From Cerasicoccus sp. TK19100 (GTDB taxonomy: Bacteria; Verrucomicrobiota; Verrucomicrobiia; Opitutales; Cerasicoccaceae): 64,000 bases of DNA. The notes under the pieces are model-generated. The model did no database searches, had not been told where the DNA came from, and was given only the letters and a program-made list of their open reading frames with translations. Below are positions 13,792 to 54,317 of the stretch, one piece after another. Location of the stretch: contig NZ_JAPWDU010000002.1 of NCBI RefSeq assembly GCF_027257155.1, positions 682,001 through 746,000 of the forward strand, read 5' to 3'. The translations under genes and the position numbers were made by a program. Position 1 is the first letter of the stretch, and each line of letters opens with the position of its first letter.

Positions 13792-14358
13792 TTAACTTGA
13801 TTTTCGAACGACTCTCACGGCTTTAGGATTTTTAGCGTCCATGAAAAATAAACTTCTTCCATAAAGAGCTTTCATACCAAACTCATCAAATTTGTTCGGA
13901 CCCATAGGTGTCATTAATACCTCGCTTTGTGTTAATCCGTCTAAATGCCTATTTCGGATTATACCCATCTGTGGTTCTAAGTCTTTAACAATTAAAACGG
14001 TATAGGCCGGATGATTATAAAAAATCAAAATGTTTCCGTCATCCATCTGCTTCGGATTCATGTCTGGATGATATCCAAAAATATCTGCCAGAATACCATC
14101 GGCAGCATTAATTGCTTCAGCATCCGACAAGCTGTCGGGCACGATTACACAAGTGCCGTTTCCATAAACAACAAAGTCATTCTTGCCGTCCGTGTAATAC
14201 TTGAATCGGTCTACGACTGCTTCTATCGTCATGTAGTTCTCAGGCTCCCAGGCGGGCACCGGTGGGAATTTTTTCTCAGGCTCTTCCTGATTGCCAAATA
14301 AACCAGTGAAAATGCCCATTACAGAAAGAATGATGATAGTGAAGTAGAGCTTGCTCAT
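13792..14358 (-). CDS. Unknown membrane-anchored protein inside the NAGGN operon
   Basis: The 188-residue protein starts MSKLYFTIIILSVMGIFTGLFG, a signal peptide or anchor with no lipobox Cys. The rest is soluble and unrecognised, with motifs such as DGNILIFYNHPAYTVLIVKD and GMKALYGRSLFFMDAKNP. It starts 6 bases after the amidotransferase stop and ends 18 bases before the synthetase start, so it is co-transcribed. Its DNA is strikingly AT-rich (about one third GC in the line I counted at 13981), unlike both neighbours, which suggests a later insertion. NAGGN operons known to me lack such a gene. Function unknown. Confidence 0.7.
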   Translation of the reverse strand: MSKLYFTIIILSVMGIFTGLFGNQEEPEKKFPPVPAWEPENYMTIEAVVDRFKYYTDGKNDFVVYGNGTCVIVPDSLSDAEAINAADGILADIFGYHPDMNPKQMDDGNILIFYNHPAYTVLIVKDLEPQMGIIRNRHLDGLTQSEVLMTPMGPNKFDEFGMKALYGRSLFFMDAKNPKAVRVVRKSS

Positions 14359-35906: not shown

Positions 35907-36620
35907 TTACTCGACGTAAGTTAGCCAGAAATGCCCCGGCTCGGGCTCGCCGTACTCCATAATCTCCTGCTCCATGTAGGTATGTCGCATGCCCGTGGGG
36001 GAGTAAATGATCACCGCGGTCATCATTTGCTCCGGACGCAAGGCGATGACGCCATCATAAAGCATACGCCAGCCGTCTTGGGTTTTCTCCCCAACTTTCG
36101 CAATTACGCGATGCTTGGCATCTGGGTTAAGCTTTAAAAGCGTGGTACTGCCCGCAGCGAGTTGTGCCTTGGCATCGCCAATGACAATCGCCGTGTCCGC
36201 AACACCGAGGTTAAAAATCCTGAGTGACTGCGGTGTCTTATCCTCGCTGCCAGTTTCCAAAATAACGTAATCGTAGCCGCTCGCATTGGATGTATCCGGC
36301 TGGACCACGACAAGCGCAGACTTGCCTTGTTTCGGCGCATTCAGCGTCAGTATTTTTTGACGCGCATCATTCTTGCGGGAGCTCTTGGCCCGCAGGATTT
36401 CCAAAGGCTGACCAAGCGAAACCTTAACCGGTTGACTGATCGAATACGGTGCCGCACTCACCCGTTTTTCCCCGCCTTCCTGCTTTAAGAAATAGGCACC
36501 TCGCGATTCATCAAGGAACAGAAAACGCAACTGCATCGTCTCACGCTCCTGCCCAAACAAGGAGCAAGCGCTAAAGATCAGAATCAAAGTCAGCCAACTG
36601 ACTGGAGATAAACGCATCAT
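35907..36620 (-). CDS. Secreted protein of unknown function, partner of the prepilin-like gene
   Basis: The 237-residue protein starts MMRLSPVSWLTLILIFSACSLFG, a signal peptide (a Cys in FSACSL may be lipidated, though the lipobox is poor). The rest is beta-rich (ALVVVQPDTS, YDYVILETGSEDKTPQSLRIFNLG, GWRMLYDGVIALRP) without a recognised family. Its start codon overlaps the upstream gene's stop by 4 bases (ATGA), so the two are translationally coupled and probably act together. It converges on the PAS-AraC gene with 11 bases between stops. Confidence 0.75.
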   Translation of the reverse strand: MMRLSPVSWLTLILIFSACSLFGQERETMQLRFLFLDESRGAYFLKQEGGEKRVSAAPYSISQPVKVSLGQPLEILRAKSSRKNDARQKILTLNAPKQGKSALVVVQPDTSNASGYDYVILETGSEDKTPQSLRIFNLGVADTAIVIGDAKAQLAAGSTTLLKLNPDAKHRVIAKVGEKTQDGWRMLYDGVIALRPEQMMTAVIIYSPTGMRHTYMEQEIMEYGEPEPGHFWLTYVE

Positions 36621-39600: not shown

Positions 39601-40150
39601 CACCGGGGCTAACCAAAAGCTGATGCCGCACGCCATTGGCATCCACCAAAGTGGCCTGCGAATCGGTACTGGGAGTGAGGCCGGTAATGCTGTCTTCCGG
39701 CGAAAGGCTCAAGCCCTGATCATAGCCACTGACTAGCCACGCGAGATGCGTGGGCTGAGCGTTGTAGGCAACGACATCGTCCGCATCGTATTCCGATTCG
39801 TTGGCGTTGCGCCAAACACCGGTCCAGTGCGCATTGCGTGCAGCGCTCCAGTAGTCATGCACTTGCTCACCGCTCAGGCTCGTGTCGTCGTTGGGAAAAA
39901 GCAAGTCTGCCTGCCCTGTTACGCGCTGGTCTGGGCCGGTATGTTTCTGCACCTCTCCGAGCGCCACCATCAGCCCGAACAAGGCATTCTGGCGCGCTTC
40001 ATTACTATCATCCTTAGAATGAATCGTGGACATCTCCACCTGCGTCACCGTGGCAACGGATAGCAAGAGAAGGAAAATGAAACCCATCAACATGAGCGCA
40101 ATGACTAAGGCAAAGCCACGCTCTCGTTTCTGGCTGGTGTTAAAATACAT
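36617..40150 (-). CDS. 1177-residue prepilin/PilX-GspK-like protein (resembles Verru_Chthon cassette protein A)
   Basis: The N-terminus MYFNTSQKRERGFALVIALM carries a Gly-Phe prepilin-peptidase site and then a hydrophobic helix (FIFLLLLSVATVTQVEM). The +5 residue is not Glu, as in PilX or GspK-type minor pilins. The remaining ~1130 residues are extracytoplasmic, rich in Asn, Asp and Tyr, and include GspK-like wording near the C-terminus (LRGPFTSMADFVNRRLINKDD). This design and size recall Verru_Chthon cassette protein A, a large pilin-like family in this phylum. It may join an extracellular pseudopilus. The ATG at 40148-40150 is chosen because it directly precedes the leader. It is coupled to the next gene by a 4-base overlap. 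Confidence 0.75.
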   Translation of the reverse strand: MYFNTSQKRERGFALVIALMLMGFIFLLLLSVATVTQVEMSTIHSKDDSNEARQNALFGLMVALGEVQKHTGPDQRVTGQADLLFPNDDTSLSGEQVHDYWSAARNAHWTGVWRNANESEYDADDVVAYNAQPTHLAWLVSGYDQGLSLSPEDSITGLTPSTDSQATLVDANGVRHQLLVSPGAGADSTIRAVTAPLLPVSKDNIDVGNYAWWVGDEGVKARVDLVDEFENSAEAVDAIKRLTSAQRMGIEAMTANADLAPDDTGLQNFYEANHERFGTIAEAQDLALLNLDNAYIRALDNRLHDITAHSRGVLADVKHGGLKHDLSYILGQPDLESMRTALNHAYEDDVAIEVTSNRVLTEEASLYATVPSNISGSGHDFDDNPGILAYTPTWEQLWSFHNMGNQQTDTPAGVYDDLGRAIPQRTTPTQHGLHPIQMQAKLFYNLDVDSSGKIYVETKPLIVLANPYAVDLGPAEYTLNFVRPSLQVRLGGDNTNPDDPVDPYDPKVINKDNDSGVKSSFTKDDSVYSVTQAGAGEIELVVVSDGLAAGEAQIFTLDGNYNIPTNSNAQKGIRAEMVNDYDPLAALRLDTGKTISGRYEYAALYCTSTKIVSRLYLDYDPASHSSDGDRKLIQYLTAKPNTSDQHEVFFVYPVSSGLQVGGGIGFTIFDVTDSLQQSMFYQLNYRSSVVYFHGYTAKSHPLEWAKTLTKKGEAGNDQYFGANLLRDSSSLTKVRWGPLHTGTANYQSVTPSEISGTEVGFENLLYDIPRPDVPLSSLGQLQHFNTTPIIDRTSWSSSSNGGSAARATTVQAWQMNYPIGNSYAHPRIDRDRLFDSRPFSGYHYDGSYLWNDVLWDRFYFSTYPTQGEFDFGASGDTLVNERYRPFRAPNEVPWNEESHFRGDGNPASSNNGRMAATNLMADGAFNINSTSKEAWKALFSSLRGVDLGSETDADNLTAPFSRTFQPSGGAEGAKTGIHANAWRGFRNLSEDEVDALAEEMVRQVRLRGPFTSMADFVNRRLINKDDDPNDLGVSGALQSALDAVVNQEGDVLSPFDVESSTNSSLLVDPDFQMPTAISGFPGYLLQGDVLSSLGAHLTARSDTFRIRAYGNVVNPLTDQVESEAWCEAIVQRMPDYVIPREGGIGNAPYESPTDATNQRFGRKYEIISFRWLTPDEI

Positions 40151-40392
40151 ACTGGGGTCGGGGTTGGTGTCGCTGAATAACAGCATTACATATCCACCAC
40201 CGAATACAACTCACGCCCAACGCAATAGATTGCGCCGCATGGTGCATCAGCAATACGGGAGACACCACTTTTTCATTGTCCTATACTAGGGTATACATCG
40301 GAATGTTCAAGTCAGTGGTTTCACAAAGAATCAACCTTCTCGAACTAAAGAGAAAGGACAAACAAACCGCAGCTGGCGCAACCGCCCGACAC

Positions 40393-40448: not shown

Positions 40449-41663
40449 CTAAGAACGGCGGCGGCGGTAAACCACACCGACTACTGCCACGCCCAGTAAC
40501 AACGCATACGTGCTTGGCTCCGGGATGGTGTAAGAGAGCACGCCAGTACCCTCCGAGAAGGTCAAGCCGCTGTCGCTGTCATACGTCCAGATACCGCCAT
40601 CTTCCGTGAAGCTGGCGATATTGAATGTGCCACCAAAAGTTTCGTTGAGCGCAGCTACATCGACGATTAACCAACTGTTACCATCGGTCAGATCCGCACC
40701 AGTCAAATCGAAAATGAATTCGCCATTCAAGTTCGTCGTAGTGTTGTTTACGCCATCACCAATGATGGAGTTGTTAACGCCGTCGCCCAAAATAGTGAAG
40801 GTCATGGAGCTGGTATCATCCAGCGTGAAGCTACCCGTGCCCGAAGAGCGCATATTAAGCTGTTCGCCAATGCTACCGCTGAAGGTGACGTTCTTATTAT
40901 CACCGCCCACGTCCAAAATCGAGCCAGCGCCGCCAGACAAGGAACCCGCACCGGACAGAAAACCGACTCTTTGCGTCAGTCCTGCGCTGAGAGATAAGGA
41001 CCCACCCGCATTCACAGTCACGCTACGCTTGGAGCCATCGAATGCATTGCCCGTCAATTGCAGTGAGCCAGTGTCATTGATCACCGTGTTCTTCAGCTTG
41101 GCGCTCACGGCACCAGTATAAATAACCGTGCCTTGATTGATGGTGAGGCTGGCGTCGAGGCGGTTAAAAGTTGCCGTGCCCGCACCGGTCTTAGACATCG
41201 AACTGCCACCATTAATCGAATTAGCAAAAAAGTCGCCCTCAATGTTGAAATCCGCATTCAGGCTAGCTGGAGAATTCAGCGTGCCAGTGGCACCGCTGTT
41301 AACGGTGATCAGGATACGCCCATCGCCATCATCGTCGATGGTGCTGCCATCAACGACGACTGAGCCATTCTTGAAGGTAAGGCTTGAAACCTGTTGGGTG
41401 CCTGAAACGGTAACGAAGCCGGTGGCGGCATCCGTTCCGGCGGAGAATACCACATCGCTACCGGCGGAATAGGCACCCGTTGCAATGGAGCCTGTGGAGT
41501 CCGTGCTCCAGTTCAGGATGGTGTCATCCCAGGTTCCGTCCGCGGGGTTACCCGCGCCGGGAGTCGCGCCATTGGTGTCCCAGTATAAAGTTTGTGCCGA
41601 GAGCACGCCGCTGAGCGTCAGCGCAATGCTGGTCGCCAGGAATCGTTGATTGGTTTTTTTCAT
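40449..41663 (-). CDS. PEP-CTERM protein with autotransporter-type beta-strand repeats
   Basis: The 404-residue protein has a signal peptide (MKKTNQRFLATSIALTLSG, cleavage near LSAQT) and a first segment LYWDTNGATPGAGNPADGTWDD that is typical of autotransporter-associated beta-strand repeat proteins. Several beta-helix-like stretches follow, then the tail IPEPSTYALLLGVAVVGVV with YRRRRS. It should be a surface protein sorted by exosortase. A perfect palindrome of the LacI-type motif lies 116 bases upstream of the start (41779-41794), tying it to the glycosidase regulon. A strong terminator follows. Confidence 0.88.
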   Translation of the reverse strand: MKKTNQRFLATSIALTLSGVLSAQTLYWDTNGATPGAGNPADGTWDDTILNWSTDSTGSIATGAYSAGSDVVFSAGTDAATGFVTVSGTQQVSSLTFKNGSVVVDGSTIDDDGDGRILITVNSGATGTLNSPASLNADFNIEGDFFANSINGGSSMSKTGAGTATFNRLDASLTINQGTVIYTGAVSAKLKNTVINDTGSLQLTGNAFDGSKRSVTVNAGGSLSLSAGLTQRVGFLSGAGSLSGGAGSILDVGGDNKNVTFSGSIGEQLNMRSSGTGSFTLDDTSSMTFTILGDGVNNSIIGDGVNNTTTNLNGEFIFDLTGADLTDGNSWLIVDVAALNETFGGTFNIASFTEDGGIWTYDSDSGLTFSEGTGVLSYTIPEPSTYALLLGVAVVGVVYRRRRS

Positions 41664-41778
41664 GATGAGATAGGGGGTGGGATATTAGTTCGATTTGATT
41701 AGGGGGTTCAGAGGAATCATGTATTCCGCACTGAATTAAACCCTCACTAAATATAGCATACATCACAAGAGACCGATT

Positions 41779-41794
41779 GCGCAACTAGTTGCGC
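41779..41794. promoter_or_regulatory. Predicted LacI-type operator 1 (perfect palindrome)
   Basis: GCGCAACTAGTTGCGC is perfectly symmetric, and the symmetry extends to 20 bp (41777-41796). It lies upstream of the beta-strand PEP-CTERM gene and just past the LacI gene stop. Confidence 0.7.
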
Positions 41795-41835
41795 AACGGC
41801 ACCTTTTTTGCCTGAACCAGTGAACACGTTCCGCT

Positions 41836-42930
41836 TTAAGCTAACAGCAGGCTCTGCCCCGGGTGCCAAACTCCCTCGACCATGGTCGTCAGCGGAACCT
41901 CGGGCACACCACGTTCGCCGCGCTGAATGGCCCCAATCATCATGTCCATTGCAGATGCGGCGACATCGCCCGGGCGCTGGTCAACACCCGATATTTCCGG
42001 ATGCTCCGCCTCCCAATTGAGCGTGGCAAAGTCGACATCGCCAGGAACGTTGATACCTGCCGCCTGGAGCTCATGCATGACTACGAGATTATCGCTGATC
42101 ACGACTTGCAGCTTGTTGCGCTGGCACCACTCTGGCGCGCTGTGCAGCGTCTCGTCGTTGAACAAATAACGCGCCACCTTCATCTTGCGCTTCTTGCCGT
42201 TTATCTCGTGGCGACGCTCATTGGCGACGAGTGCGGCGGACAACCACAAGTCGTCCACGCGGCGGCTCGTTTCGCCAAACAAGCACAGCCCCACACGCTC
42301 ATAGCCGGCGGCAAATACCTGACGCAATGCCTCCTGCATCCCATGAAAGTGGTGAGGTGCGCTGCGGTGCAGATTTGGCGTCATGAAGGAGTAGCCAACG
42401 GTCACGGAGCTGAAGTGCTCCCAGTCCATATCAATGTGTTGGCGCACTTCTTGAATTGGGGCCATAAACAGTCCCAGGATACCGCGGCTATAAAGAATTT
42501 TGCTAAGCCGCGCGGCAGTCATCCCTTTTTCGCCGAGCCAGAAATGCTCCAGCTTGTAGCCCATGTCCTTCAGGCGCTTGGCAGCACCGGCATGGCACTT
42601 GGCGTAAAAAGGATTATCCCGCCATTCGTCGCGCTGAGAGAAGTTCGTTAAGTAGGCGATCGTCGTGATATCCGACTCCCGCGATCGCCCCCGGCGGCGC
42701 GAGGCAAAGGCCGACAGCAATGGGTCCGGCCGATAGCCCATAGTCTCCGCCACTTGCTTGATCCGCTTGCGCGTCGTTTCCGGGATTTGCGGGTTCGAGC
42801 TGAGCGCACGGCAAACAGTCGACGCGGACACCCCCGCCCGTTCGGCGATGTCCTTCATTGTTACTCGTTCCAGGGAGGTTTGAGAATCCGGGGTACTCAC
42901 AGAGCGTGAGTTAACGCGCTTTCGGCTCAT
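41836..42930 (-). CDS. LacI-family transcriptional regulator
   Basis: The 364-residue protein has the LacI helix-turn-helix at residues 23-70 (VTMKDIAERAGVSASTVCRAL, ETTRKRIKQVAETMGYRPDP) and a periplasmic-binding-protein-like sensor domain. It starts 22 bases after the stop of the GH-A enzyme gene and is therefore the second gene of that operon, whose promoter carries two copies of the predicted operator. It shares sensor wording with the LacI at 52540 (LGEKGMT versus HEKGMTHHRI), so the two are close paralogues. It is the best candidate for the factor that binds the GCAA-N4-TTGC palindromes. Confidence 0.93.
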   Translation of the reverse strand: MSRKRVNSRSVSTPDSQTSLERVTMKDIAERAGVSASTVCRALSSNPQIPETTRKRIKQVAETMGYRPDPLLSAFASRRRGRSRESDITTIAYLTNFSQRDEWRDNPFYAKCHAGAAKRLKDMGYKLEHFWLGEKGMTAARLSKILYSRGILGLFMAPIQEVRQHIDMDWEHFSSVTVGYSFMTPNLHRSAPHHFHGMQEALRQVFAAGYERVGLCLFGETSRRVDDLWLSAALVANERRHEINGKKRKMKVARYLFNDETLHSAPEWCQRNKLQVVISDNLVVMHELQAAGINVPGDVDFATLNWEAEHPEISGVDQRPGDVAASAMDMMIGAIQRGERGVPEVPLTTMVEGVWHPGQSLLLA

Positions 42931-42952
42931 TCAGCAAGTGATAAAGAAGAAA

Positions 42953-43984
42953 TCAGGCAGTCGTCAGCGCGGCCTCCATTAGCGCACGGTAAGACAACTT
43001 TGGTTCGCCATGTTGGTCCAGCAGACCCCAGGCCGTCTCAGCCGGACACGCCTCCTCCTTGCACTGCCAGCAGTAAGTTGCATCGCGCCAGTTGTAGTAA
43101 ATCGCACCGAGCACGTAAGGCTTCTCGCGGTAGATTTTCATGACCTCGCGAATGTATTCCGCCTGCATTTCCTGGCTATGCTCACCGCGCCAGGCGAACT
43201 TCCATTTCTTAATGTCGCAGGGATAATGACCGGCCGCGATCTCAGCCTCGTTCATCACACCACCCGCAGAGGCGTAGCCAAATTCCATGATCACGATCGG
43301 CTTGCCGGTCAGTTCGTAGAAGCCCTCCAGATACTCCGCCCAGACTTCGGGCCCTCCCTCACGCCAGCTGCCCGGATAGCTATCGAAGCCCGCATAATCC
43401 ACCGGCAGCGTATCATCACCATAGATGCCGCGCGCCAAGGCCAGACCTTCGGAAGCCTCGGTGTTGCCATCAATCACGCCAGGCATATCCGGAAACAGTG
43501 TGATGTTGATGCCGACTTTTAACTGCGGGGCCTCGTCCTTCATTGCGAGAATGCCCACCTTTAAAAACTCAATGGACTGCGCCATATCGAGCGTGTCGCG
43601 GAAAATCCAGATATCGAGTTCGTTGGCGACCTGCCACCACTGAATCAAATCGCCAAACTCCTGCGCAAAGAAGCGGCTCACGCGGTCATAGGCGTCGTAG
43701 TAAGATGCACTACCGGGTTCCAGTCCGAGTTTTGCCATCTCACGAGGTCCGGGCGTGATGCCAATCAGCTCAAAGCCCGCCTCCCGCAGATCACGTAAAC
43801 GCTGTGTGGCCGAGTAAAATTCTTTCGGCTGCTTGCGGCCTTCCAGAAAGGCCAAGGGGTCAAATTGAAAATCGCCAAAGCGCAGCCAGCCAATGCCGGC
43901 GTCTTTCATCATTCGAAAATCACGGTCGCTCAGCTCGGTATATCGAGCGGCCACGCCCATCATAAATTCGTTGGTGTCTTGCAT
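42953..43984 (-). CDS. Cytoplasmic clan GH-A glycoside hydrolase-like TIM-barrel protein
   Basis: The 343-residue protein has no signal peptide. The order of barrel motifs fits clan GH-A: GIGWLRFGDFQFDP early, WQVANELDIW with the Asn-Glu acid/base pair near residue 140, and KPIVIMEFGYASAGG with the likely nucleophile Glu near residue 230. I cannot place it in a numbered family. Seven Cys residues include a cluster in the C-terminal part (CWQCKEEACP), which may bind metal. It is transcribed with the LacI gene and diverges from a secreted GH5, so it probably processes the oligosaccharides taken up after GH5 cleavage. Confidence 0.72.
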   Translation of the reverse strand: MQDTNEFMMGVAARYTELSDRDFRMMKDAGIGWLRFGDFQFDPLAFLEGRKQPKEFYSATQRLRDLREAGFELIGITPGPREMAKLGLEPGSASYYDAYDRVSRFFAQEFGDLIQWWQVANELDIWIFRDTLDMAQSIEFLKVGILAMKDEAPQLKVGINITLFPDMPGVIDGNTEASEGLALARGIYGDDTLPVDYAGFDSYPGSWREGGPEVWAEYLEGFYELTGKPIVIMEFGYASAGGVMNEAEIAAGHYPCDIKKWKFAWRGEHSQEMQAEYIREVMKIYREKPYVLGAIYYNWRDATYCWQCKEEACPAETAWGLLDQHGEPKLSYRALMEAALTTA

Positions 43985-44074
43985 ATGAGGTTAAGCAATA
44001 AGGATTCAAATATTCGCCTATCAGCGTAACCAACAGTTTGTTACAAACACATCCGCAGCAGCAACGACGGCAAC

Positions 44075-44090
44075 GTGCAATTAGTTGCGT
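44075..44090. promoter_or_regulatory. Predicted LacI-type operator 2
   Basis: GTGCAATTAGTTGCGT keeps the GCAA-N4-TTGC core. It lies in the divergent promoter region of the GH-A/LacI operon and the GH5 gene, 20 bp from operator 3. A weaker, half-conserved site (ATTAGTTGC) lies at 44138-44153. Confidence 0.6.
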
Positions 44091-44094
44091 AGGG

Positions 44095-44110
44095 CCGCAA
44101 TCAATTGCGC
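44095..44110. promoter_or_regulatory. Predicted LacI-type operator 3
   Basis: CCGCAATCAATTGCGC keeps the GCAA-N4-TTGC core, exactly 20 bp from operator 2, about two DNA turns. Confidence 0.6.
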
Positions 44111-44225
44111 GCAGAAGGCTTTGAGGATGCCAGCGGCACACGATTAGTTGCTGTTATCCCTACCCCGGTTGTTTTCATTCCCCTGAATGCCGCGTGCGTT
44201 CTCAACCCCAACCCCCACAATAAGC

Positions 44226-46880
44226 ATGATGCACCGAATACTACCCGTGCCCCGGGCCCTATTGGCCGGAGGCTGCTTACTCACTGCGATCTGCGGCCAT
44301 GCCGCGATTACCCTCGACAACTGGTCGTCCTCCCCCTGGCAGTTAACCGGTGGCGATGTCGACTTCTCCGCTACCTTAACCGACCCCGTCTACCAGGGCG
44401 GCACGAGCGCCAGCTTCGTCTTCGCCACCCCGAAAACCGGTGTCGACGTGTCCACGCAATCCACGCCGGATGACTCCGTGGCATCGGCGTCTGTCTTTGG
44501 CGTCGAAGGCACCGGCTTTGGCGTTAGTGAAACTTACGTAGGCCGCTTTAATCGCGGCGAAAGCTTCACGCTACAAGTCGATCACGCCTTCCAGCTCAAT
44601 GGCATTCGCTGGGCCGAATACCAAGGCGACGAGGCCATCCACATCGCCTGGACCAGTGGCGGCGCTACGATGAGCCAGGTCTTCGATCTGCCTGCCGGTT
44701 CGTTCTACACCACCACGAACTTCAATGATATCATCATCGACGCCAATACGCTGGTGACGATTACCAACGTCAGCGATACCAGCGCGAGCGCGAGCGGCCG
44801 CCTCCGTATTAACCAAATCTACACCGAGTTGGTCGATGCCGTCACGCTGCCGGAAATCGGTGAGACACACCTGCTGAACAACTGGAGCAGCGCCCCATGG
44901 AGCCTGACTTCAGGGCAGACCACATTCTCTGCCAATATCAGCGACACCGTCCTTGGGGACGTGCTCGTGAGCTTCTACGATCCGGTGACGGGTGCCGATA
45001 TATCCGACCCACAGGCACCAGACTTTAGCAGCGCCAGTTCCTCGACCTTTGGCGTAGAGGGAACGGGGTTTGGTGTGGGCAACTCCGGCACCGGGCGCTT
45101 TGATCGCGGTGAAAGCTTCATCCTTGAAGCCGATGAAAGCTTTGAATTGCAAAGCATTCGTTGGGTCGAGTATTCAGGCGATGAAAGCGTTCACTTTGCA
45201 TGGCAAAGTAATGGCGTGCCGATGAGCACGGTGATCGATCTACCCGCCGGTTCGTTCTACACCGAGACCGAGCTCAGCGGCATCTTCCCCGACGCCAACA
45301 CCCCACTGGAGATCACCAACGTCAGCAGTAGCGGTGCCTACCTAAACGGACGCCTGCGCATCAACCACGTCGAGCTGGCCTTCCTCTCCAACGCCCCCGT
45401 CACCGGCAGCACCGCTGGTGCCTACATCTTCCTGCGGGACTGGCAGCAGTGGCCATGGGATGCATCCCCCGGCGACTCCACAATTAGCGGCACGCTCTGG
45501 GCACCGGAGAATGGCGGCAGTAACATTGCCTTCAACTTCCTCGCCTATGCGAACGTAGATGTGGACACGCCCAGTGCGCCGGACTTTACCAACGCCACCG
45601 CTTCGGTCTTTGGCTTTGAATCAACCGGTTTTGGCGTGGGCGAGACCAACGTGGGCCGCTTCAACCGCGGTGAAAGCTTCACCGTCACCGCCGGACACGA
45701 CTTGCAGATCGATACCATTCGCTGGCGCGAAGTCCAGGGCGACGAGCAGGTACATATCTCTTGGGTGAACAACGGCACCGCGCAATCTGTCGTGCTTGAT
45801 GTGACTAGTAGCACCTCGGATCTGACTGACGTGATTGCCGACGCCAACACCGCCATCGTCATCACCAACGTCAGCCCCACCACCTCATCCCTCAATGGCC
45901 GCTTGCGTGTGCAAGACTTCAAGGCGCGCGCCGTTTACGCCACAGCGCCGACCTACGATCACTCCGGCCCGGACGGCTTTGTCCAGATGATGGGGGTCAA
46001 CCTGGCGGGTGCCGAGTTTAGCGGATTCGCCTTTTGGCAGGACAACCCGCAAGAGTGGGATTACTACCATAGCAAAGGGCTCGACCTGATCCGCATCCCC
46101 TTCAAATGGGAACGCCTGCAGCCCACACTCTACGGTGCGGTGGACTTCACCGACCTCGATGCCATCGTCGCCCTCGCCGATGCGCGCGGCATGAAAGTCG
46201 TCCTCGATATGCACAACTACGCCCGCTACAATGGCAACGTTATTGGCACGACCAATGTGCCCAACGCCGCCTTTGCCGATGTATGGCGCAAGCTCGCCGA
46301 CCACTATAAAAACGAGTCCGCGATCTATGGCTACGGCATCATGAACGAGCCGCACGGCACTGGTGGACTCTGGCCCGCCGCCGCCCAAGCCGCCGCCGAT
46401 GGCATTCGCGATGTGGACAGCAATACGTGGATCATCGTCGCGGGTGAAAACTATAGCAGCGCATCGACCTGGCGCACCAGTAACCCCAACCTCGACGTGC
46501 AGGATGCCTCCGGAAAAACCATGTATGAGGCCCACATCTACTTCGACCAAAGCTGGCCCGCCGGTGACGGCAGCTACAGCTCGTTTGACAACGAGAACCC
46601 GGAAGACGACCGAGGCGTGCGCCTGGTCCACCCGTTCCTGCTTTGGCTGCAAGAGAAGAACGCCCGCGGCTTCATTGGTGAGTTCGGCGTGCCCAACAAC
46701 GACGCACGCTGGAACGTGCTGCTCGACGAGTTCATGGCCCACATCTCCGCCTACGGCATGAGCGGCACCTACTGGGCCGGCGGCGAGAACTGGGGCAACT
46801 ACGCTCTGGATATCTCCCCTACCAACAGCTACACGACGGACGCCATTCCGATGCAGGTGTTGGAAAATTACGCCTTCTAG
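44226..46880 (+). CDS. Secreted GH5 glycoside hydrolase with three N-terminal repeat modules
   Basis: The 884-residue protein has a signal peptide (MMHRILPVPRALLAGGCLLTA, cleavage near GHAA). Three homologous beta-type modules of about 165 residues follow (about 30-200, 215-386, 399-571). Each opens with an NWSSxPW or DWQQWPW motif and contains FGxExTGFGVxxxxxGRFxRGESF and GRLRI or GRLRV; they look like carbohydrate-binding modules of a type I cannot name. Residues ~580-884 are a GH5 domain with acid/base Glu708 in NEPHG and nucleophile Glu819 in GEFGVP. It should cut a beta-linked polysaccharide; glucan or mannan is possible. ATG 44226 starts the signal peptide. A strong terminator follows. 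Confidence 0.9.
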   Translation: MMHRILPVPRALLAGGCLLTAICGHAAITLDNWSSSPWQLTGGDVDFSATLTDPVYQGGTSASFVFATPKTGVDVSTQSTPDDSVASASVFGVEGTGFGVSETYVGRFNRGESFTLQVDHAFQLNGIRWAEYQGDEAIHIAWTSGGATMSQVFDLPAGSFYTTTNFNDIIIDANTLVTITNVSDTSASASGRLRINQIYTELVDAVTLPEIGETHLLNNWSSAPWSLTSGQTTFSANISDTVLGDVLVSFYDPVTGADISDPQAPDFSSASSSTFGVEGTGFGVGNSGTGRFDRGESFILEADESFELQSIRWVEYSGDESVHFAWQSNGVPMSTVIDLPAGSFYTETELSGIFPDANTPLEITNVSSSGAYLNGRLRINHVELAFLSNAPVTGSTAGAYIFLRDWQQWPWDASPGDSTISGTLWAPENGGSNIAFNFLAYANVDVDTPSAPDFTNATASVFGFESTGFGVGETNVGRFNRGESFTVTAGHDLQIDTIRWREVQGDEQVHISWVNNGTAQSVVLDVTSSTSDLTDVIADANTAIVITNVSPTTSSLNGRLRVQDFKARAVYATAPTYDHSGPDGFVQMMGVNLAGAEFSGFAFWQDNPQEWDYYHSKGLDLIRIPFKWERLQPTLYGAVDFTDLDAIVALADARGMKVVLDMHNYARYNGNVIGTTNVPNAAFADVWRKLADHYKNESAIYGYGIMNEPHGTGGLWPAAAQAAADGIRDVDSNTWIIVAGENYSSASTWRTSNPNLDVQDASGKTMYEAHIYFDQSWPAGDGSYSSFDNENPEDDRGVRLVHPFLLWLQEKNARGFIGEFGVPNNDARWNVLLDEFMAHISAYGMSGTYWAGGENWGNYALDISPTNSYTTDAIPMQVLENYAF

Positions 46881-46903
46881 GCATGGTTTCTTTCTAAACC
46901 ATC

Positions 46904-46933
46904 AAGGCCGCCAATTCGTTGGCGGCCTTTTTT
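46904..46933 (+). terminator. Rho-independent terminator of the GH5 gene 44226-46880
   Basis: The stem AAGGCCGCCAA/TTGGCGGCCTT with loop TTCG is followed by a T run. The very stable UUCG loop makes this a textbook terminator. Confidence 0.93.
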
Positions 46934-46999
46934 ATGCCCTGCTGGCAGTCAATCGCTGGCGCAAATCTGCTGCCCGGAGTTTCCGTATAGGCAAACTGG

Positions 47000-47091
47000 C
47001 AGTTTGCCCATACCCTTCGCGACAGTTTAACTATACCTTTCGTGACCGTTTAACGATACCCTTCGCAACAGTTTGCCCCTAGTTAAATGGT
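47000..47091. repeat. 23-bp tandem repeat
   Basis: Units start at 47000, 47023, 47046 and 47069 (consensus CAGTTTaaCxATACCCTTCG plus three bases). The fourth is truncated after CAGTTTGCCCCTAG. Confidence 0.65.
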
Positions 47092-47143
47092 CACGAAACC
47101 TAGGGGCAAACAGGCACGAAACCTCTAGGTTTCGTGCCGCCAA

Positions 47144-47255
47144 GGTAGGGACGCACCTCCGGGGCGTCCGCCCAACAGATGGGTAATATCATAAATAGCA
47201 TATCAATGCGGTCCAGCAATATGCTAGGCGGACGCCCCGGAGGTGCGTCCCTACC
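47144..47255. repeat. REPIN-like hairpin between two GH5 genes
   Basis: Perfect 29-bp inverted arms (47144-47172 and 47227-47255) with GTAG at one end and CTAC at the other flank a 54-bp loop. The arms share their 24-bp core with the element at 33633-33720. Confidence 0.88.
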
Positions 47256-47261
47256 CCATAC

Positions 47262-47295
47262 AAAAGCCCGGCAAACGCTTGGCTCGCCGGGCTTG
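47262..47295 (-). terminator. Terminator of the GH5 gene 47324-49501
   Basis: On the minus strand the stem AAGCCCGG/CCGGGCTT with a longer loop is followed by TTTT, shortly after the stop. Confidence 0.75.
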
Positions 47296-47323
47296 GTGGG
47301 AAACTTACTTTGTATCGCAGAGT

Positions 47324-49501
47324 TTAGCGCATGGCCTTCATCTCGAACTGCTTGCCAGCGAGCGCTTCTTTGGCTGGTTCACCCCAGAATGGCGTGGGCG
47401 TGTAGTCCCAGTCGACCAGCATACGCGGTGTGGCACGCGGGTGAAAGCACCAGCCGGTCCAGTTGATTTTATGCTTTTGGATAAAGCCCAGCATGTCCGG
47501 CACCCACGTTGCGGGATCTTCCTGAATTTCAGACGGGATGAACTCCATCTTCTTCGGGTCGGCACCGACCTCACCCAGGAAAATCGGGTACTTCTCGGCG
47601 GCGGGCAGAACTTTCTCTTCCCAGTTGTCGTGCCAGTTGTAGGTGTGCCAGGAATACATGATACCGTTGCCGCCCTTGTCATCGAGCGCATAGCCGTTGA
47701 CCACGCCTGTCAGGTCGTTACACCAGAACAAACCGCCGGCGATGATGATGTTCTTCGCGCCCGTCGAGCGAACGGCGTCCACGAGGCCCTGCATGCCCAC
47801 GGACTCAAAGCCCATGTTCTTCTTCTTCTCTTCATCGGTGAGGAAGCCGGATTCGTCGGTGCCCTTCTTCGTGCCAACAAAGCCGCCATTACGCCAGACC
47901 TCCCAAGAGATGTCATGCGGCTCGTTCATCACGTCGAACAGCACTGCCGGGTGGTCCTTGTAGAGGGCGGCAAACTCTTTCCAAAAATCCGCATGTTCCT
48001 GCTTGGGAGCACGGTAACGGTGGAGATCGATCACGATGTAGGCACCACGATTGGCCGCGAGGGTGATCATCTTGTCAATGATGTCGCGATAGCCTTGGCC
48101 GCCATCTTTTTGGTAATGGCTCTTGCCCCACCAGAACTCTTCCTTCATCGGCACGCGCACGCAGTTGGAGTTCCACTCGTCGATGGCAACGACCAGCGAC
48201 TTAACCGGCTGCTCGTCCATCGGCAGGGTTTCCAAGCCACCGGCATTGACGCCCTGCAGCCACACTTCGTTGCCATCGGTGTCGTGCAAGCGGTTGCCAA
48301 CGACCTTCAGCATCTTCGGCCATTTGCTTGGGTCGGGCTCCTCGGCAGGGACAAACTTCGCGGCCTGTTGGCGCTCCCTGGCTGCCTTGCGTTCCAGCAC
48401 GGGCGCGGGGTCAATCGGCTTCAGCACAAAGTCGTCCAGCTCGTAGGTCCCGGCCTTCACGTTGAACAGCGCAGGCATCAGAACGAGCGTAGCCGCGTTC
48501 TCTGGGACGAGGAAATCTTTGCTCTTTTCCACCCAGCCCTGGGTGTCCTTTTGCGAATAAGAGGGAGACGGATTACCGCCGATCTTCTTACCGTTAGCGT
48601 CCTTCCACTCCAGCATGATGCGCGCGTCAAACCACGGTTTCTCGCCCTTCTGAAGACCGGTCACATTTTGCTTCCAGCTCAGCTCAAGCGCTTCGGTATT
48701 AGCCGGAATATCGACCTCTCGGTAGTCGTTGACCATCTTACCCGGCTCCGTGCTGACCAGTTGCAGGTAGTGGTTGCCGTCTTTTTCGACGATATTTTTC
48801 TTGTTCGCCCAGCGGCCCTCGTGGTCCCACCCCGGAACCAGCGAACCAGTCTGGGCAAGCTGCTTGGCGGCCTTCTCCTGGCGGCTGGCCAGCTTGGCAC
48901 GTTCCTTCTCTTCGCGTTCCAAGCGGGCCTGCTCGGCCGCAGCGCGCAGAGGCTCCGGATCAGTAGGCATCAACACGAGATCATCGATGTCGAACGTGCC
49001 CGCCTTGACCTGAAACAGGCACGGCATAAACTTGAGCGTCTTGGCTTCCGGCGGGACGATGAAGGCCGTCTTTTTCTCGACCCAGCCAGCCGTGTCGCGG
49101 CGGGTGGAGGGAGCCTTGGGCGTCGGCCCGATCTTAGAGCGATCCTCCGTGAGGAATTCCATCAAGATGCGCGCGTCGAACCACGACTTTTCGCCGACTT
49201 CGAGCCCGGTTACGCGCTGCTTCCAGGTCATCTCAATCGCCTCGACGCCATAAGGAATCGGAATCTCCTGGTAGAGCATGACCATGGCACCAGGCTCGGT
49301 GCTGCTCAAGCGGATGAAGTGGTTGCCCTCCTCGACCTCCCAACTGCCGCCGGTTTTGAGCTTAGCCCAGTTGTCTGGCCAGCTGTCCAGATCAGCATCG
49401 GTTTCGAAACCGGTATTGGATACTAGGGGCTCAGCGTGAATGACAGCCACGGAAGCGCAAAGCGCGATGAGGCGTAAAAAGGTGCGGGATAATTTGTTCA
49501 T
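47324..49501 (-). CDS. Secreted GH5 glycoside hydrolase with two N-terminal binding modules
   Basis: The 725-residue protein has a signal peptide ([23 protein letters not shown]). Two homologous modules (about 25-185 and 225-385) follow. Each contains LSSTEPGAM- or LVSTEPGKM-type, WKQxVTGLxxGEKxWFDARI and [10 protein letters not shown]-type motifs, and they look like CBM4/9-type beta-sandwiches. A charged helical linker ([21 protein letters not shown]) joins them. The C-terminal GH5 domain (~400-715) has the acid/base in DVMNEPHD and the nucleophile in LGEVGAD. The substrate is a beta-glycan not identifiable here. A predicted operator (49598-49613) lies 97 bases upstream of the ATG. Confidence 0.9.
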
Positions 49502-49597
49502 GTTGCCAATGGGGGTTCATGAATCGGCTTACAGTATAATCGGCCGAATCGTTCTTTAACCACAGTGAAATTTAGTTTTCTGCTCAAGGGGACCCCA

Positions 49598-49613
49598 GCG
49601 CAATATGTTGCGT
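49598..49613. promoter_or_regulatory. Predicted LacI-type operator 4
   Basis: GCGCAATATGTTGCGT, core GCAA-N4-TTGC, upstream of the minus-strand GH5 gene. Confidence 0.65.
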
Positions 49614-49709
49614 TATATGGGTGTTTACAGGTTGAAGGTGAGTGTTTTCAAGCAGCTCAAACCGATTGGCGAGAGCGCTTGCCGGTTGTCAATGGGCAGC
49701 AAAAGCCGA

Positions 49710-51467
49710 TCAGGTTTCGTCGGCCTGCAATTTTAAAAAGCAAGGCGTCGCGCCGGACACCTTGACCCGCCAACGCTTGAGCGCCGCGCTGCCATCGCCG
49801 TCCGGATCGGCTTGCAGGGTTTCCTCGATTACGTTGACGCCATCTGGCGAAAGCGCGGTCCAGGAACTCGGCAGCAAATCCTCGCTGCGGAGCACCGAAT
49901 ACTGGATGCCGGTGGCGAGTTGATTCGTGCGAAAGTCAAAGGTCAGCCACGGGCCATCGGCCGTATCGGAGTCGGTGCTGAAGGTGGCCGTCTTGCCCGC
50001 AAGGTTGTCCAGCGGCGGAAGATCGAGCGCGTAGGCGAACCAGTTGGAAACGCCGTCGTGGTTGGGATCGGCCTCCGGGCTGGAGTCCTCGGCACCCCAG
50101 TCGATGGCATCCGACCAGTCGAGGTAGCTCAGTGTTTCGTTGGCTGCGAGAATGGCCTCAAACGCGGCTCTTAGCGGAACGGCGGCCAACGCATAACCCT
50201 GGCCATTGGGGTGCGTGCCGTCTTTGGTCGCATAGTCGTTGGCACCGGTCGTCACCCAATAATGATCGTCAGTGGGGTCCGCCACCGGCGTTAGCGTATC
50301 GACGAGCACGTCGATCAAGCCCTGCGAAAGTGCGGTCTCCAAATGGGCGTTTAGCTGATCGCGCTCACCGCCCTCGCCCCAACCGTTGTTGGGCGTTTGG
50401 TCGGCCAGGCTGGTCCAGTTACCAGAGGCCGATGTCGTGCGCGGCATGAGTTTGGTCCGCAGAACTTTTTCCACGCCAGCGTCGCGCGCAAGTTGCCAGA
50501 TCGCCTGGAGGCGCGTATAAATTACGTCGGCATCTCCCGTCCCGTTGGACCCGATGTCGTTCGTGCCGTATTCTTCGACCACCACATTGGCAAAAGGCAG
50601 GAACACTTCGCGCATCGCATGGGAGTTGACAAAGGTATTCGCGGATTCACCGTGGCGCGCCAGGCTAAGCATGCCGACTGCGTTCTCGCCATCGCTGTCC
50701 AGGGCCGCGCGATCCAGAAAGCCGCTCCCTGAGATGACGGGCGTCGGGTTCGTCGCGTCGCCGGAGCCGTGGAGAATGCTGTCGCCCAAGCCAATCACCG
50801 ACAGGTAACCCGGCCCCGTGAAGCGCCCGCCAAACATGACGGCGAGGCCGTTAGTACGTTGATTTTTACCCGTGATGTTTGGCACGGCACCCGCAGTATC
50901 CACCGTCCCCGGATCATTGGCCGGATCGTAAAAAAGAAACTTCGAGCCGCTGTAGGTCGCATAAACGCCGAGGCAGGCTTTGCCGTCTGTCGCTGGCACA
51001 CTGCCCTTCACGTGCAGCCAGAAAACTTCGTCGCGTTGCGGCGTGCCACCCGTCCAGACCGAGGAGTCCACGGGGTCCGCCATGTAGTAAGGCTCGGCGA
51101 CACCGCCCAACAGCACCACCTCACGTTCGCCGTCGAAAGTCAGCGGCACGATCTGGCCATCGCTGTCGCGCTCCAACCAGGCATAGCTGATCGTAACGTC
51201 GCTGCTGTTAATGACCTCGCCACTGTAGCCGACGGCCCAGTTCATAAAGGCGATATCGATCTCTGCCACCGGTCCGCCGAGCTTGTGTGGCGTGCGTTGC
51301 CAGAACGCAGTGTTCGTCGCCCCGGGCGAATAGGTAAACGGTGACATGCGGCTATTCGTGCCAACCACACGCATCGGCTGCACGTCGGCCATCGTGGACA
51401 AGGTTGGGACTAACACCGAGGCCAGTAAAAGGAACCGGCGAATTTTGAGGATGAAGCAATAAGACAT
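49710..51467 (-). CDS. Secreted SGNH/GDSL-type hydrolase
   Basis: The 585-residue protein starts MSYCFILKIRRFLLLASVLVP, a signal peptide ending near STMADV. A beta-rich N-terminal part of about 200 residues is followed by an SGNH hydrolase core: VIGLGDSILHGSG (nucleophile Ser), EYGTNDIG (block III Asn) and DGTHPNGQGY (catalytic His). The C-terminal ~120 residues resemble a small beta module with a calcium-type motif EADPNHDGVSNWF. Such enzymes often remove acetyl groups from polysaccharides, which would assist the neighbouring GH5 enzymes; the substrate is inferred. Predicted operator 5 lies 68 bases upstream. Confidence 0.82.
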   Translation of the reverse strand: MSYCFILKIRRFLLLASVLVPTLSTMADVQPMRVVGTNSRMSPFTYSPGATNTAFWQRTPHKLGGPVAEIDIAFMNWAVGYSGEVINSSDVTISYAWLERDSDGQIVPLTFDGEREVVLLGGVAEPYYMADPVDSSVWTGGTPQRDEVFWLHVKGSVPATDGKACLGVYATYSGSKFLFYDPANDPGTVDTAGAVPNITGKNQRTNGLAVMFGGRFTGPGYLSVIGLGDSILHGSGDATNPTPVISGSGFLDRAALDSDGENAVGMLSLARHGESANTFVNSHAMREVFLPFANVVVEEYGTNDIGSNGTGDADVIYTRLQAIWQLARDAGVEKVLRTKLMPRTTSASGNWTSLADQTPNNGWGEGGERDQLNAHLETALSQGLIDVLVDTLTPVADPTDDHYWVTTGANDYATKDGTHPNGQGYALAAVPLRAAFEAILAANETLSYLDWSDAIDWGAEDSSPEADPNHDGVSNWFAYALDLPPLDNLAGKTATFSTDSDTADGPWLTFDFRTNQLATGIQYSVLRSEDLLPSSWTALSPDGVNVIEETLQADPDGDGSAALKRWRVKVSGATPCFLKLQADET

Positions 51468-51534
51468 TGGGGATTCGTAAATGTTTTCAGATCGCATTGT
51501 GCCGGGTTTGTGCCTTCAGTCCGAAACGTTCGCG

Positions 51535-51550
51535 GCACAACGAATTGCGT
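51535..51550. promoter_or_regulatory. Predicted LacI-type operator 5
   Basis: GCACAACGAATTGCGT matches the best palindrome at 12 of 16 positions, with one half-site intact. It lies upstream of the SGNH hydrolase gene. Confidence 0.5.
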
Positions 51551-51626
51551 GCGTGAGAAAATTGAAAAAAAAGTCGCTAACGCGGAGTTATTCACCCCGC
51601 TTGAATCTAAAAAGCTTGTCTCGTAA

Positions 51627-52400
51627 CTAGCGCTTCTGGGACCGGCGTCGCACCGCAAACCCCAAGGCCGCGCATGCAAAAATCGCGGCATAAAGGCCAG
51701 GCTCGGGCACCACCGTCAGGGTGTTATCGTGCGTGATGTTGTCGAAATACAGCGTATTGTCATCGGCGCTGAAGGAGCGGATCAGGAAAGAATTCACCAG
51801 CTTATCACTCGTGTGGTCGTAGATCCCCGCTGCGATAACGGTAGTGGAAACCGTGTCATAGAAATAGAGCGCAGTCTGGCCTGCCCCCAGCGTAGCGCCG
51901 GTGCCGGCAATCGTCTCCGATGCGCCCGAGCCGTTATGGACAATGTAAGTCACGTAAGCGCGATCCAGCTCCAAGGTGGGCAATGAGCCGGATACGAGGG
52001 AAGTGTTGTTGATCGCGGTCAGCACGCCATTGTTAATACTCCATGCGGCGTAGGCGTTGGCATTGACGTCTCCCTGCCCGATGCCAAAGCGCGTAATGCT
52101 GGACTGCCCTGTTGTGGGCTCAAACAGGTCAAAGCTATACGTCATCAACGTGCTCACGGAGGCCACGCGTACGAACGAAGAACCGCCATCGAGATAACCA
52201 AACTGGTTGGGCGATCCAAAGGGAGTTGCCGTTGTCTGGTCGGCCACGCCAAAGCCGGAGTAAATCTTGCCGCCACCACTGGTCGACTGATCGTTGGCCA
52301 CCGGGTAGGATTCGAAGTCATCAAAGAAAACCACTGAGCCATTCAAGGCGGTCAGGCAAAGGCAGCCAGCGAGGCTGGCGAGAAGGGGCGTAATATTCAT
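51627..52400 (-). CDS. PEP-CTERM sorting domain protein
   Basis: The 257-residue protein has a signal peptide (MNITPLLASLAGCLCLTALNG) and ends in VVPEPGLYAAIFACAALGFA plus VRRRSQKR, the PEP-CTERM tail. The body starts FFDDFESYPVAND and contains a concanavalin/LamG-like beta pattern (SFVRVASVSTLMTYSFDLFEP, LYFDNITHDNTL), which suggests carbohydrate binding at the surface. It is divergent from the LacI gene at 52540; only a weak match to the shared operator is seen upstream. Confidence 0.85.
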   Translation of the reverse strand: MNITPLLASLAGCLCLTALNGSVVFFDDFESYPVANDQSTSGGGKIYSGFGVADQTTATPFGSPNQFGYLDGGSSFVRVASVSTLMTYSFDLFEPTTGQSSITRFGIGQGDVNANAYAAWSINNGVLTAINNTSLVSGSLPTLELDRAYVTYIVHNGSGASETIAGTGATLGAGQTALYFYDTVSTTVIAAGIYDHTSDKLVNSFLIRSFSADDNTLYFDNITHDNTLTVVPEPGLYAAIFACAALGFAVRRRSQKR

Positions 52401-52481
52401 TAGGGTATGCTGGGTTTGGGTTAACAAATTAATTGCTGATAAGTAAATCAACCCAGAGTACGAATGACAAACTCCGCGAAT

Positions 52482-52495
52482 TTAAACGCGTTTAA
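52482..52495. promoter_or_regulatory. Predicted operator of the 52540 LacI regulator
   Basis: TTAAACGCGTTTAA is a perfect 14-bp palindrome with the central CpG common in LacI-family operators, 45 bases before the LacI start and 82 bases before the divergent PEP-CTERM gene. Confidence 0.5.
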
Positions 52496-52539
52496 GTGCT
52501 GGATTAGTGAGGAATTAGCGCCATCATGGATTGTAAGAA

Positions 52540-53583
52540 ATGTCCGACGCATCCCCAACCATTCGAGACATCGCCCATGCACTGAAAATCAGCCCGGCAA
52601 CTGTGTCACTCGCTCTGCGCAACGACCAGCGCATCGCCAAGCAAACACGGGAGCGGGTCATTTCGACTGCCCGGCAAATGGGCTATCAACTCAACCCCGC
52701 CATCGCCTCACTGATGTCCCAGGTGAGGACTCAACGCAGCATCACTTACCAGGAAACCATTGCCTGGCTAAACTTCTGGGAAGATCGCGACACCTACCAG
52801 AAAACCGGCGTCGAGTTTCAGCGCCGCATGTGGCAGGGAGCCCTCCGGCAGGCGACGGAGCTCGGCTACAGTTTGCAGAATTTCTGGATGCACGAGAAAG
52901 GCATGACCCATCATCGCATTAATGAAATTCTCCAAGCACGCGGGATTCGCGCCATAGTGATTCCACCGCTGCCGGAGTCGGCTGGTATTCCGAATTTTGA
53001 TTGGTCCAACTTCTGTGGAATCTGCACGTCTTACACGATTACCGAACCACACTTCGACCGCGTCACACCAAACCATTTTCATAACATTCAACTCATCCTG
53101 AATAACCTGCGTCAACGCGGCTACCAGCGGCCGGGTCTGCTCCTGCCCCAAGGTTACGATGAGCGAACCGGCCATCGTTGCCTGGCGGCTTACTACCTGA
53201 TGCAGCAAGCCATGCCGAAAAAGAACCGTATACCAGCCCACATCTGCGACCCCATACGCATCGACGACGCGATCATTAATTGGCTCAAGAAATACCAACC
53301 CGATGCCGTCATCATGATGGGCACCCATAAGGACATTAAGAAAGCATCCGCATTAAGCGCAGACTATTTGGCGCGTCTTGGCATTGTCCTGATGAGTAAT
53401 GCCAGCAGCGACGCCGGATTCTGCGGCATTGATGAAAACCCGGACATCATCGGCGCAACGGGGGTCGAGCTGCTTGCCCTGGCGCTACAGCGAAATCTCT
53501 CAGGGACTCCGGAGCATCCCCGGTTGATTCAAATTGACGGCCACTGGGTGGAGGGCCAGTCAGCCCCTGCGCTGGTTAATTAA
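52540..53583 (+). CDS. LacI-family transcriptional regulator
   Basis: The 347-residue protein has the LacI helix-turn-helix at residues 6-55 (TIRDIAHALKISPATVSLALRN, RVISTARQMGYQLNPAI) and a sugar-sensor-type C-terminal domain. Its sensor resembles that of the LacI at 41836-42930. The palindrome at 52482-52495 suggests autoregulation and control of the divergent PEP-CTERM gene. Its stop codon overlaps the end of the convergent pseudopilin gene. Confidence 0.93.
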   Translation: MSDASPTIRDIAHALKISPATVSLALRNDQRIAKQTRERVISTARQMGYQLNPAIASLMSQVRTQRSITYQETIAWLNFWEDRDTYQKTGVEFQRRMWQGALRQATELGYSLQNFWMHEKGMTHHRINEILQARGIRAIVIPPLPESAGIPNFDWSNFCGICTSYTITEPHFDRVTPNHFHNIQLILNNLRQRGYQRPGLLLPQGYDERTGHRCLAAYYLMQQAMPKKNRIPAHICDPIRIDDAIINWLKKYQPDAVIMMGTHKDIKKASALSADYLARLGIVLMSNASSDAGFCGIDENPDIIGATGVELLALALQRNLSGTPEHPRLIQIDGHWVEGQSAPALVN

Positions 53584-54256
53584 CCGCACGCAAGTCCACC
53601 GAGACATCGATTTGCTCCACATGCCCGTCGAAAAAGAGCGTGTTACGGTAGTTACCGTGGACCGGCTTTTCCGGCAGAAACTTCGACCACCCCGCCGTGG
53701 GAACGAGAACGGCATCGGCCTCGGTATACATCGGCGCTTTGCTGGGGTCTTGAAGCAGCAAGTAAGATTTCCCCCAAGGCGGTTGGCTGGCGTAGTCCTC
53801 GCTATTGGTTAGCTTAACGGGCCAGTTACCAATCAGGCTTGGCCCGGGGCCACGGCGATTCGCTGACCAGCCAGACCATGCCAGGGTGGCGTCGTAAGTC
53901 ATTTTGTCTTCGCTCGTGCTCCAGGTGTCCGATGCCGGTACATCCAAATAGGAACCAAACAGTGTCTGTATTCGTCGCGGGTCCCGATTGTAATACGGGC
54001 CCTGTCCGCTGAAGGGCGTGCCGAGATGGGAAGTCGGCAGCAGGTTGTTATTGTCCTGCAAATACATTTGGAACGCCGCTCCAATCTGCCGTATCTGCGA
54101 GGAGCACTGTGCCGAGCTGGCGCGGGTTTTCACCCCGGATAGCACCGGGATTAAGATCGCCGCCAAAACACCAACGATGGCAATGACGGTTAACAACTCG
54201 ATCAACGTAAAGCCGCGTCGAGATTGATGGGGTAAAGAACAAATGCGGGGCAACAT
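53576..54256 (-). CDS. Type II secretion/pilin-like protein with prepilin leader
   Basis: The 226-residue protein has the classic prepilin site RRGFTLIELLTVIAIVGVLAAILIPVL near its start, with Glu at +5. The globular part ends in GNYRNTLFFDGHVEQIDVSVD, the H-x-DGHV tail common in pseudopilin-like proteins of Planctomycetes and Verrucomicrobia. It may assemble into, or be exported by, a type II secretion-like apparatus. The ATG at 54254-54256 is used because it gives a leader of normal length (about 15 residues). A nearly perfect operator of the glycosidase regulon lies 46 bases upstream. Confidence 0.88.
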   Translation of the reverse strand: MLPRICSLPHQSRRGFTLIELLTVIAIVGVLAAILIPVLSGVKTRASSAQCSSQIRQIGAAFQMYLQDNNNLLPTSHLGTPFSGQGPYYNRDPRRIQTLFGSYLDVPASDTWSTSEDKMTYDATLAWSGWSANRRGPGPSLIGNWPVKLTNSEDYASQPPWGKSYLLLQDPSKAPMYTEADAVLVPTAGWSKFLPEKPVHGNYRNTLFFDGHVEQIDVSVDLRAVN

Positions 54257-54301
54257 AGATGAATTTTGCTTATAAAATTGAGTAATGGCAACGCCGTCTT
54301 T

Positions 54302-54317
54302 ACGCAACTAGTTGCGC
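54302..54317. promoter_or_regulatory. Predicted LacI-type operator 6
   Basis: ACGCAACTAGTTGCGC matches the perfect operator 1 at 15 of 16 positions. It lies 46 bases upstream of the pseudopilin start. Confidence 0.7.

Follow-up and report, generated by a model that had tools for sequence, protein, structure and literature searches.

Sequence comparison gives good support for a regulon linked to LacI1, a predicted LacI-family regulator, in which a 16-bp palindrome precedes genes for glycoside hydrolases, an SGNH hydrolase, a PEP-CTERM protein and pilin-like secreted proteins. The original prediction had read these palindromes as one LacI regulon, and both their conservation and the co-occurrence of the motif with LacI1 bear this out; that LacI1 itself binds them is what we infer from the same data. 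Four features go beyond the earlier account and are newly noted here: a larger regulon, a TTG at a fixed distance from the palindrome, a non-CpG operator centre and a Phe in the LacI1 hinge.

Operator sites and target genes in the window

The window is the whole stretch of DNA analysed, which comes from a marine bacterium (64,000 nt; positions are counted from its start), and its own genome (G000) comprises 5.07 Mb. Gene calls are ORF-based, with some start codons adjusted by eye. The operator consensus is RYGCAAYNNRTTGCRY, a 16-bp even palindrome with GCAA half-sites around a four-base spacer, and GCAAN4TTGC was seen nine times in the window as against 2.26 expected. The predicted operators are:

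40220-40235, minus strand, ACGCAATAGATTGCGC, for the 1189-aa gene; TTG at 40207-40209; overlooked in the original prediction
41779-41794, minus strand, GCGCAACTAGTTGCGC, for the PEP-CTERM beta-strand gene; TTG at 41766-41768; kept in G001-G003
44075-44090, minus strand, GTGCAATTAGTTGCGT, TTG at 44062-44064, toward the GH-A/LacI1 operon
44095-44110, plus strand, CCGCAATCAATTGCGC, TTG at 44121-44123, toward the 897-aa GH5 gene
49598-49613, minus strand, GCGCAATATGTTGCGT, for the 725-aa GH5 gene; TTG at 49585-49587; kept in G002
51535-51550, minus strand, GCACAACGAATTGCGT, for the SGNH hydrolase gene; TCG, not TTG, at +10; SGNH orthologues have sites too
54302-54317, minus strand, ACGCAACTAGTTGCGC, for the pseudopilin gene; TTG at 54289-54291; the unlinked pilin orthologue of G001 has a site too

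The six sites reported earlier are at the positions given for them and have the core described, with ACAA on one side at 51535. They are intergenic, as had been said, and their distance to the annotated starts in the target direction is 37-115 bp (46-116 bp in the earlier account). The claim that the other promoters of the window contain no such site was wrong: the site at 40220-40235 lies 33 bp upstream of the ORF 36617-40186 on the minus strand, and its PWM score of 21.6 is on par with those of the other window sites. Instead of the five transcription units proposed we count seven in the window, namely the 1189-aa/237-aa pair, the PEP-CTERM gene, GH-A/LacI1, the two GH5 genes, the SGNH gene and the pseudopilin gene. 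Their genes are:

35907-36620, minus strand, 237-aa protein, second gene of the 1189-aa unit; the pairing with the 1189-aa gene is conserved
36617-40186, minus strand, 1189-aa protein with a pilin-like N-terminus; probable start about 40150
40449-41663, minus strand, PEP-CTERM beta-strand protein (PF07589)
41836-42930, minus strand, LacI1, the proposed regulator (PF00356, PF13377; co-occurrence with the motif)
42953-43984, minus strand, GH-A-type (TIM-barrel-like) enzyme, first gene of the LacI1 operon; GH113 match weak and below cutoff; 73-78% identity in the genus
44187-46880, plus strand, GH5 enzyme, 897 aa (PF00150); probable start 44226
47324-49501, minus strand, GH5 enzyme, 725 aa (PF00150), with solved GH5 relatives
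49710-51497, minus strand, SGNH/GDSL hydrolase (PF13472)
53576-54256, minus strand, pseudopilin-like secreted protein (PF07963; TIGR02532 above cutoff)

Judged by eye, the SGNH gene probably begins some 30 bp downstream of its annotated start at 51497. The solved GH5 matches are general cellulases. The DNA between the two GH5 genes (46950-47265) is rich in repeats; several short ones and, around GGGACGCACCTCCGGGGCGTCCGCC, an inverted one were recognised by eye.

The 1189-aa/237-aa pair is common to all seven LacI1-positive genomes (G000, G001, G002, G003, G056, G030 and G057). Pfam has no family for either protein. The N-terminus of the 1189-aa protein resembles Verru_Chthon_A/GspK far below cutoff, and only this pilin-like N-terminus matches; its assignment as Verru_Chthon cassette protein A was rejected (TIGR02600, 11.1 bits, 20.5 for the best homologue, cutoff 332). 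The motif extends prediction to proteins of unknown function such as this pair.

The palindrome elsewhere in the genome

Pattern searches of G000, combined with fetched stretches, gave eight perfect matches to CGCAAYNNRTTGCG in its 5.07 Mb. Five of them fall in a 14.1-kb part of the window, a clustering with a Poisson probability of about 4e-11 (about 3e-8 over all windows). Promoters of CAZyme, pilin-type or PEP-CTERM genes account for six of the eight, including one upstream of a further GH5 gene (C3:680103). The remaining two, C6:515266 and C9:114032, are intragenic, within a thiD-like gene and a CHAD gene, and were taken as chance matches. The genome scan that the original prediction had proposed thus finds perfect matches mostly in promoters and not equally common elsewhere. 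With up to one mismatch, the whole genome has 71 matches, the eight perfect ones included, against 66 for the control, which is background overall.

Two one-mismatch sites, C1:211290 and C1:216766, are located among GH5, GH115 and esterase genes. In this second cluster the GH-A gene survives as a broken copy with an internal deletion, homologous to window 42953-43984, and a LacI gene as a broken remnant that is similar to LacI1 at its C-terminal end:

L034 (G000 C1), 8412-8868 and about 13870-14300, broken GH-A and LacI1-like copies beside intact GH5 genes

The cluster resembles a degenerated second copy of the window module that has kept its palindromes and GH5 genes, and those GH5 genes would then rely on LacI1 in trans. 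Among its other products are GH115, a BD-FAE esterase and a SASA acetylesterase, a set that hints at hemicellulose as the substrate. The regulon would thereby comprise the seven window units, the second cluster and a third GH5 gene elsewhere in G000.

Conservation and co-occurrence with LacI1

Three further Cerasicoccus genomes (G001, G002 and G003) encode LacI1 orthologues with 71-79% identity. Around these genes the palindrome precedes the same genes despite changed gene order and intergenic DNA, and in G001 a sugar transporter (MFS_2) gene near LacI1 is also faced by a site. The comparison with related genomes proposed earlier thus came out in favour of the prediction: sites recur upstream of orthologous genes in six other genomes, the three Cerasicoccus and three more distant ones (G056, G030, G057). 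The more distant MAG NP23 likewise has sites before orthologous genes; judged from identical site flanks, NP23 and G056 are one genome. G056 has three LacI1 copies (62-64% identical to LacI1) on three contigs (L259-L265), each with its own sites on the same contig, which precede GH5, GH-A, SGNH, PEP-CTERM or giant pilin-like genes. The same pattern of sites and genes is found on a smaller scale in G030 and G057. Sites before an ExbB/ExbD operon (G001 C21) and a VWA gene (G002 C6) were not counted because they have no orthologue support.

Of 177 genomes analysed in the order, seven have a LacI1 orthologue; these cover four genera and contain 66 extended matches, whereas the other 170 have about 80 together and at most four per genome. 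The association between motif excess and LacI1 orthologue has a p of about 1e-7, a value that overstates independence as the seven positives are partly related. For polysaccharide-degrading Verrucomicrobiota, the papers that could be searched describe no LacI-family regulon and no such operator motif. The LacI1 regulon appears readable from sequence in seven genomes, and the motif is ready for predicting co-regulated enzymes.

A TTG at a fixed distance and possible activation

A TTG occurs exactly 10 bp past the palindrome on the target-gene side in 27 of 41 flanks, compared with 0-4 at other offsets. In G000 alone it is present at 8 of 10 sites (P about 1e-9, corrected for 48 offsets and 64 triplets); the GH5 site on C3 has TGG instead. 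Site classes, single-direction or divergent, were set by hand from gene orientation. Among single-target sites, 14 of 20 have the TTG toward the gene and 2 of 20 have it on the opposite side. The divergent GH-A/GH5 pair has two sites in G000 and G002, each with a TTG toward one gene, and in G003 and NP23 a single site with a TTG on both sides. When the LacI1 contigs of G056, G030 and G057 were scanned with the TTG not required, 25 of 54 flanks (two flanks per site) had it at +10, again with 0-4 elsewhere.

A blind scan for GCAAYNNRTTGC-N12-TTG in the four Cerasicoccus genomes gave 8, 16, 6 and 4 matches, against 2, 0, 0 and 0 for the controls. Thirteen of the 16 matches in G001 are intergenic, most of them before homologues of window units, and the other three are within ORFs. 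Several are unlinked to LacI1, namely those at a pilin orthologue (67%), a GH5 orthologue (76%) and a cluster of a GH5 gene with a homologue of the giant (1189-aa) gene; G003 has an extra match upstream of a giant-gene homologue. These unlinked matches place the pseudopilin and the giant protein in the regulon independently of gene neighbourhood.

A constant distance of 10 bp to a TTG on the gene side suggests that the bound protein touches RNA polymerase, and we therefore favour activation. We consider it probable that the palindrome is the operator of LacI1, and that LacI1 activates the regulon when docked 10 bp upstream of a TTG-type -35 element. A LacI1 dimer would read the two GCAA half-sites that flank a centre which is not CpG and is usually TA. 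The regulon marked out by these operators would be partly dispersed along the chromosome and would include secreted GH5 enzymes, a GH-A-like enzyme, an SGNH hydrolase, a PEP-CTERM surface protein and pilin-like secreted proteins. As LacI1 shares an operon with the GH-A gene, it would be autoregulated. If the TTG is the start of the -35 element, the operator centre would be near -53.5, and LacI1, presumably with a substrate-derived oligosaccharide, would help RNA polymerase to start at weak promoters. The fixed spacing predicts a transcription start for nearly every unit and makes activation by a LacI protein directly testable.

The assignment of the TTG to the -35 element is not secure because the -10 signal is weak: the mean TATAAT match is 2.08 at a 17-bp spacer versus 1.70 in shuffled sequence, slightly higher at 16 bp, and T is enriched where a -10 element is expected, yet the match is weak. 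At the pilin gene, the start predicted from the TTG coincides with the ATG and leaves no leader, which counts against the TTG as -35. The TTG could instead belong to a second, unlinked DNA-binding partner protein.

The same regulon might also be controlled by LacI1 as an ordinary repressor that sits immediately before the -35 element and impedes RNA polymerase until it is released by an oligosaccharide. This is the strongest competitor of activation, though we rate it as clearly less likely. Most characterised LacI proteins repress, the regulators predicted for hemicellulase genes are said to be repressive in the great majority (PMC10766802), and the sites are within the usual range of 30-140 bp before starts (PMC4052901); the weak -10 evidence also leaves room for this view. 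Repression, however, needs neither the strict gene-facing 10-bp spacing, seen in more than two-thirds of promoters, nor a site wholly upstream of the -35 element.

LacI1 as the probable regulator

LacI1 has an N-terminal helix-turn-helix (PF00356, 58.8 bits, cutoff 27) and a periplasmic-binding-like sensor domain (PF13377, 29.4 bits, cutoff 26.5). Even-palindrome LacI operators are mostly 30-140 bp before starts (PMC4052901), and the LacI1 sites, even palindromes of which most are in that range, share this family trait. They lack the usual central CpG: of 1251 LacI regulators with even palindromes, 1173 have a consensus with CG at the centre and 78 one that is different or degenerate there (PMC4052901), whereas the central dinucleotide is CG in none of 65 strict-core LacI1 sites and usually TA. 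LacI1 also lacks the usual hinge Leu, which intercalates at the operator centre, and has a Phe aligned with the Leu of CcpA; the hinge segment PDPLLSAFAS was read in LacI1 orthologues. We hypothesise that the non-CpG centre and the Phe hinge are linked, and together they offer a natural case for LacI DNA recognition without the usual CpG kink. A search for operators of LacI paralogues, aimed at pairing hinge residue with CpG centre, found none.

The layout has partial precedents. CcpA, a LacI-family protein, activates from sites upstream of the -35 element (PMC3463425). This protein of the Firmicutes, with activated promoters such as ackA, pta and ilvB, aligns with LacI1 in helix-turn-helix and hinge; its sites have a central CpG and variable positions, in contrast to the non-CpG centre and fixed 10-bp gap of LacI1 sites, and it is a global carbon regulator rather than the regulator of a local glycan regulon. 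CytR of gamma-proteobacteria shares with the LacI1 sites the half-site TGCAA/TTGCA (PMC3454398). It tolerates variable spacing and acts with CRP, whereas the spacing in LacI1 sites is fixed at four bases and the analysis found no site for a partner. In Clostridium thermocellum, GlyR-type LacI regulators are predicted to control several secreted glycanases, mostly as repressors (PMC10766802). They resemble LacI1 by target genes, with one LacI for several secreted glycanases, and differ in that LacI1 is proposed to activate.

The operator of E. coli PurR, ACGCAAACGTTTGCGT, is identical to the proposed LacI1 operator in its outer six bases and register. PurR regulates purine genes, with a central CpG and an intercalating Leu, in contrast to the non-CpG centre, Phe and glycan regulon of LacI1.

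Another protein might bind the palindromes of a real regulon in which LacI1 is a co-inherited passenger, since binding by LacI1 is deduced from co-occurrence and motif shape only. We regard this as improbable: the LacI1 gene is present in all seven motif-rich genomes and adjoins sites in all of them, half-site and register suit the LacI family (CytR has TGCAA half-sites; PMC3454398), and the alternative regulator LacI2 lacks a close orthologue in G003 and goes with a palindrome of its own. That the palindromes are chance matches, or a repeat with no regulatory role, is hardly credible given their clustering, their conservation before orthologues in seven genomes and correct matches at unlinked loci, although one-mismatch matches are at genome background (71 versus 66 in the control).

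LacI2 and a possible wider layout

LacI2 (52540-53583), 27% identical to LacI1, is unlikely to be the regulator, as G003 keeps the motif without a close LacI2 orthologue and the LacI2 gene has another conserved palindrome, TTTAAACGCGTTTAAG, at window 52481-52496, between LacI2 and a divergent 274-aa gene. G001 and G002 retain this second palindrome beside their LacI2 orthologues, and at all three loci a TTG at +10 faces the divergent gene. Tentatively, LacI1 and LacI2 may belong to a type of dedicated activator in this order that docks exactly 10 bp upstream of a TTG -35 element, each at its own palindrome; the LacI1 branch, with non-CpG centre and Phe, would couple glycanases to a pilin-like secreted apparatus. 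Three scans, for generic palindromes, for the canonical CpG pattern with TTG and of LacI loci, gave no excess, and only LacI2 fits such a rule. A palindrome TCGTTACACGTAACGA, about 90 bp before a LacI paralogue (L053, G002 C1), has a TTG at +10 on one side and is possibly a third case of a LacI gene with this layout.
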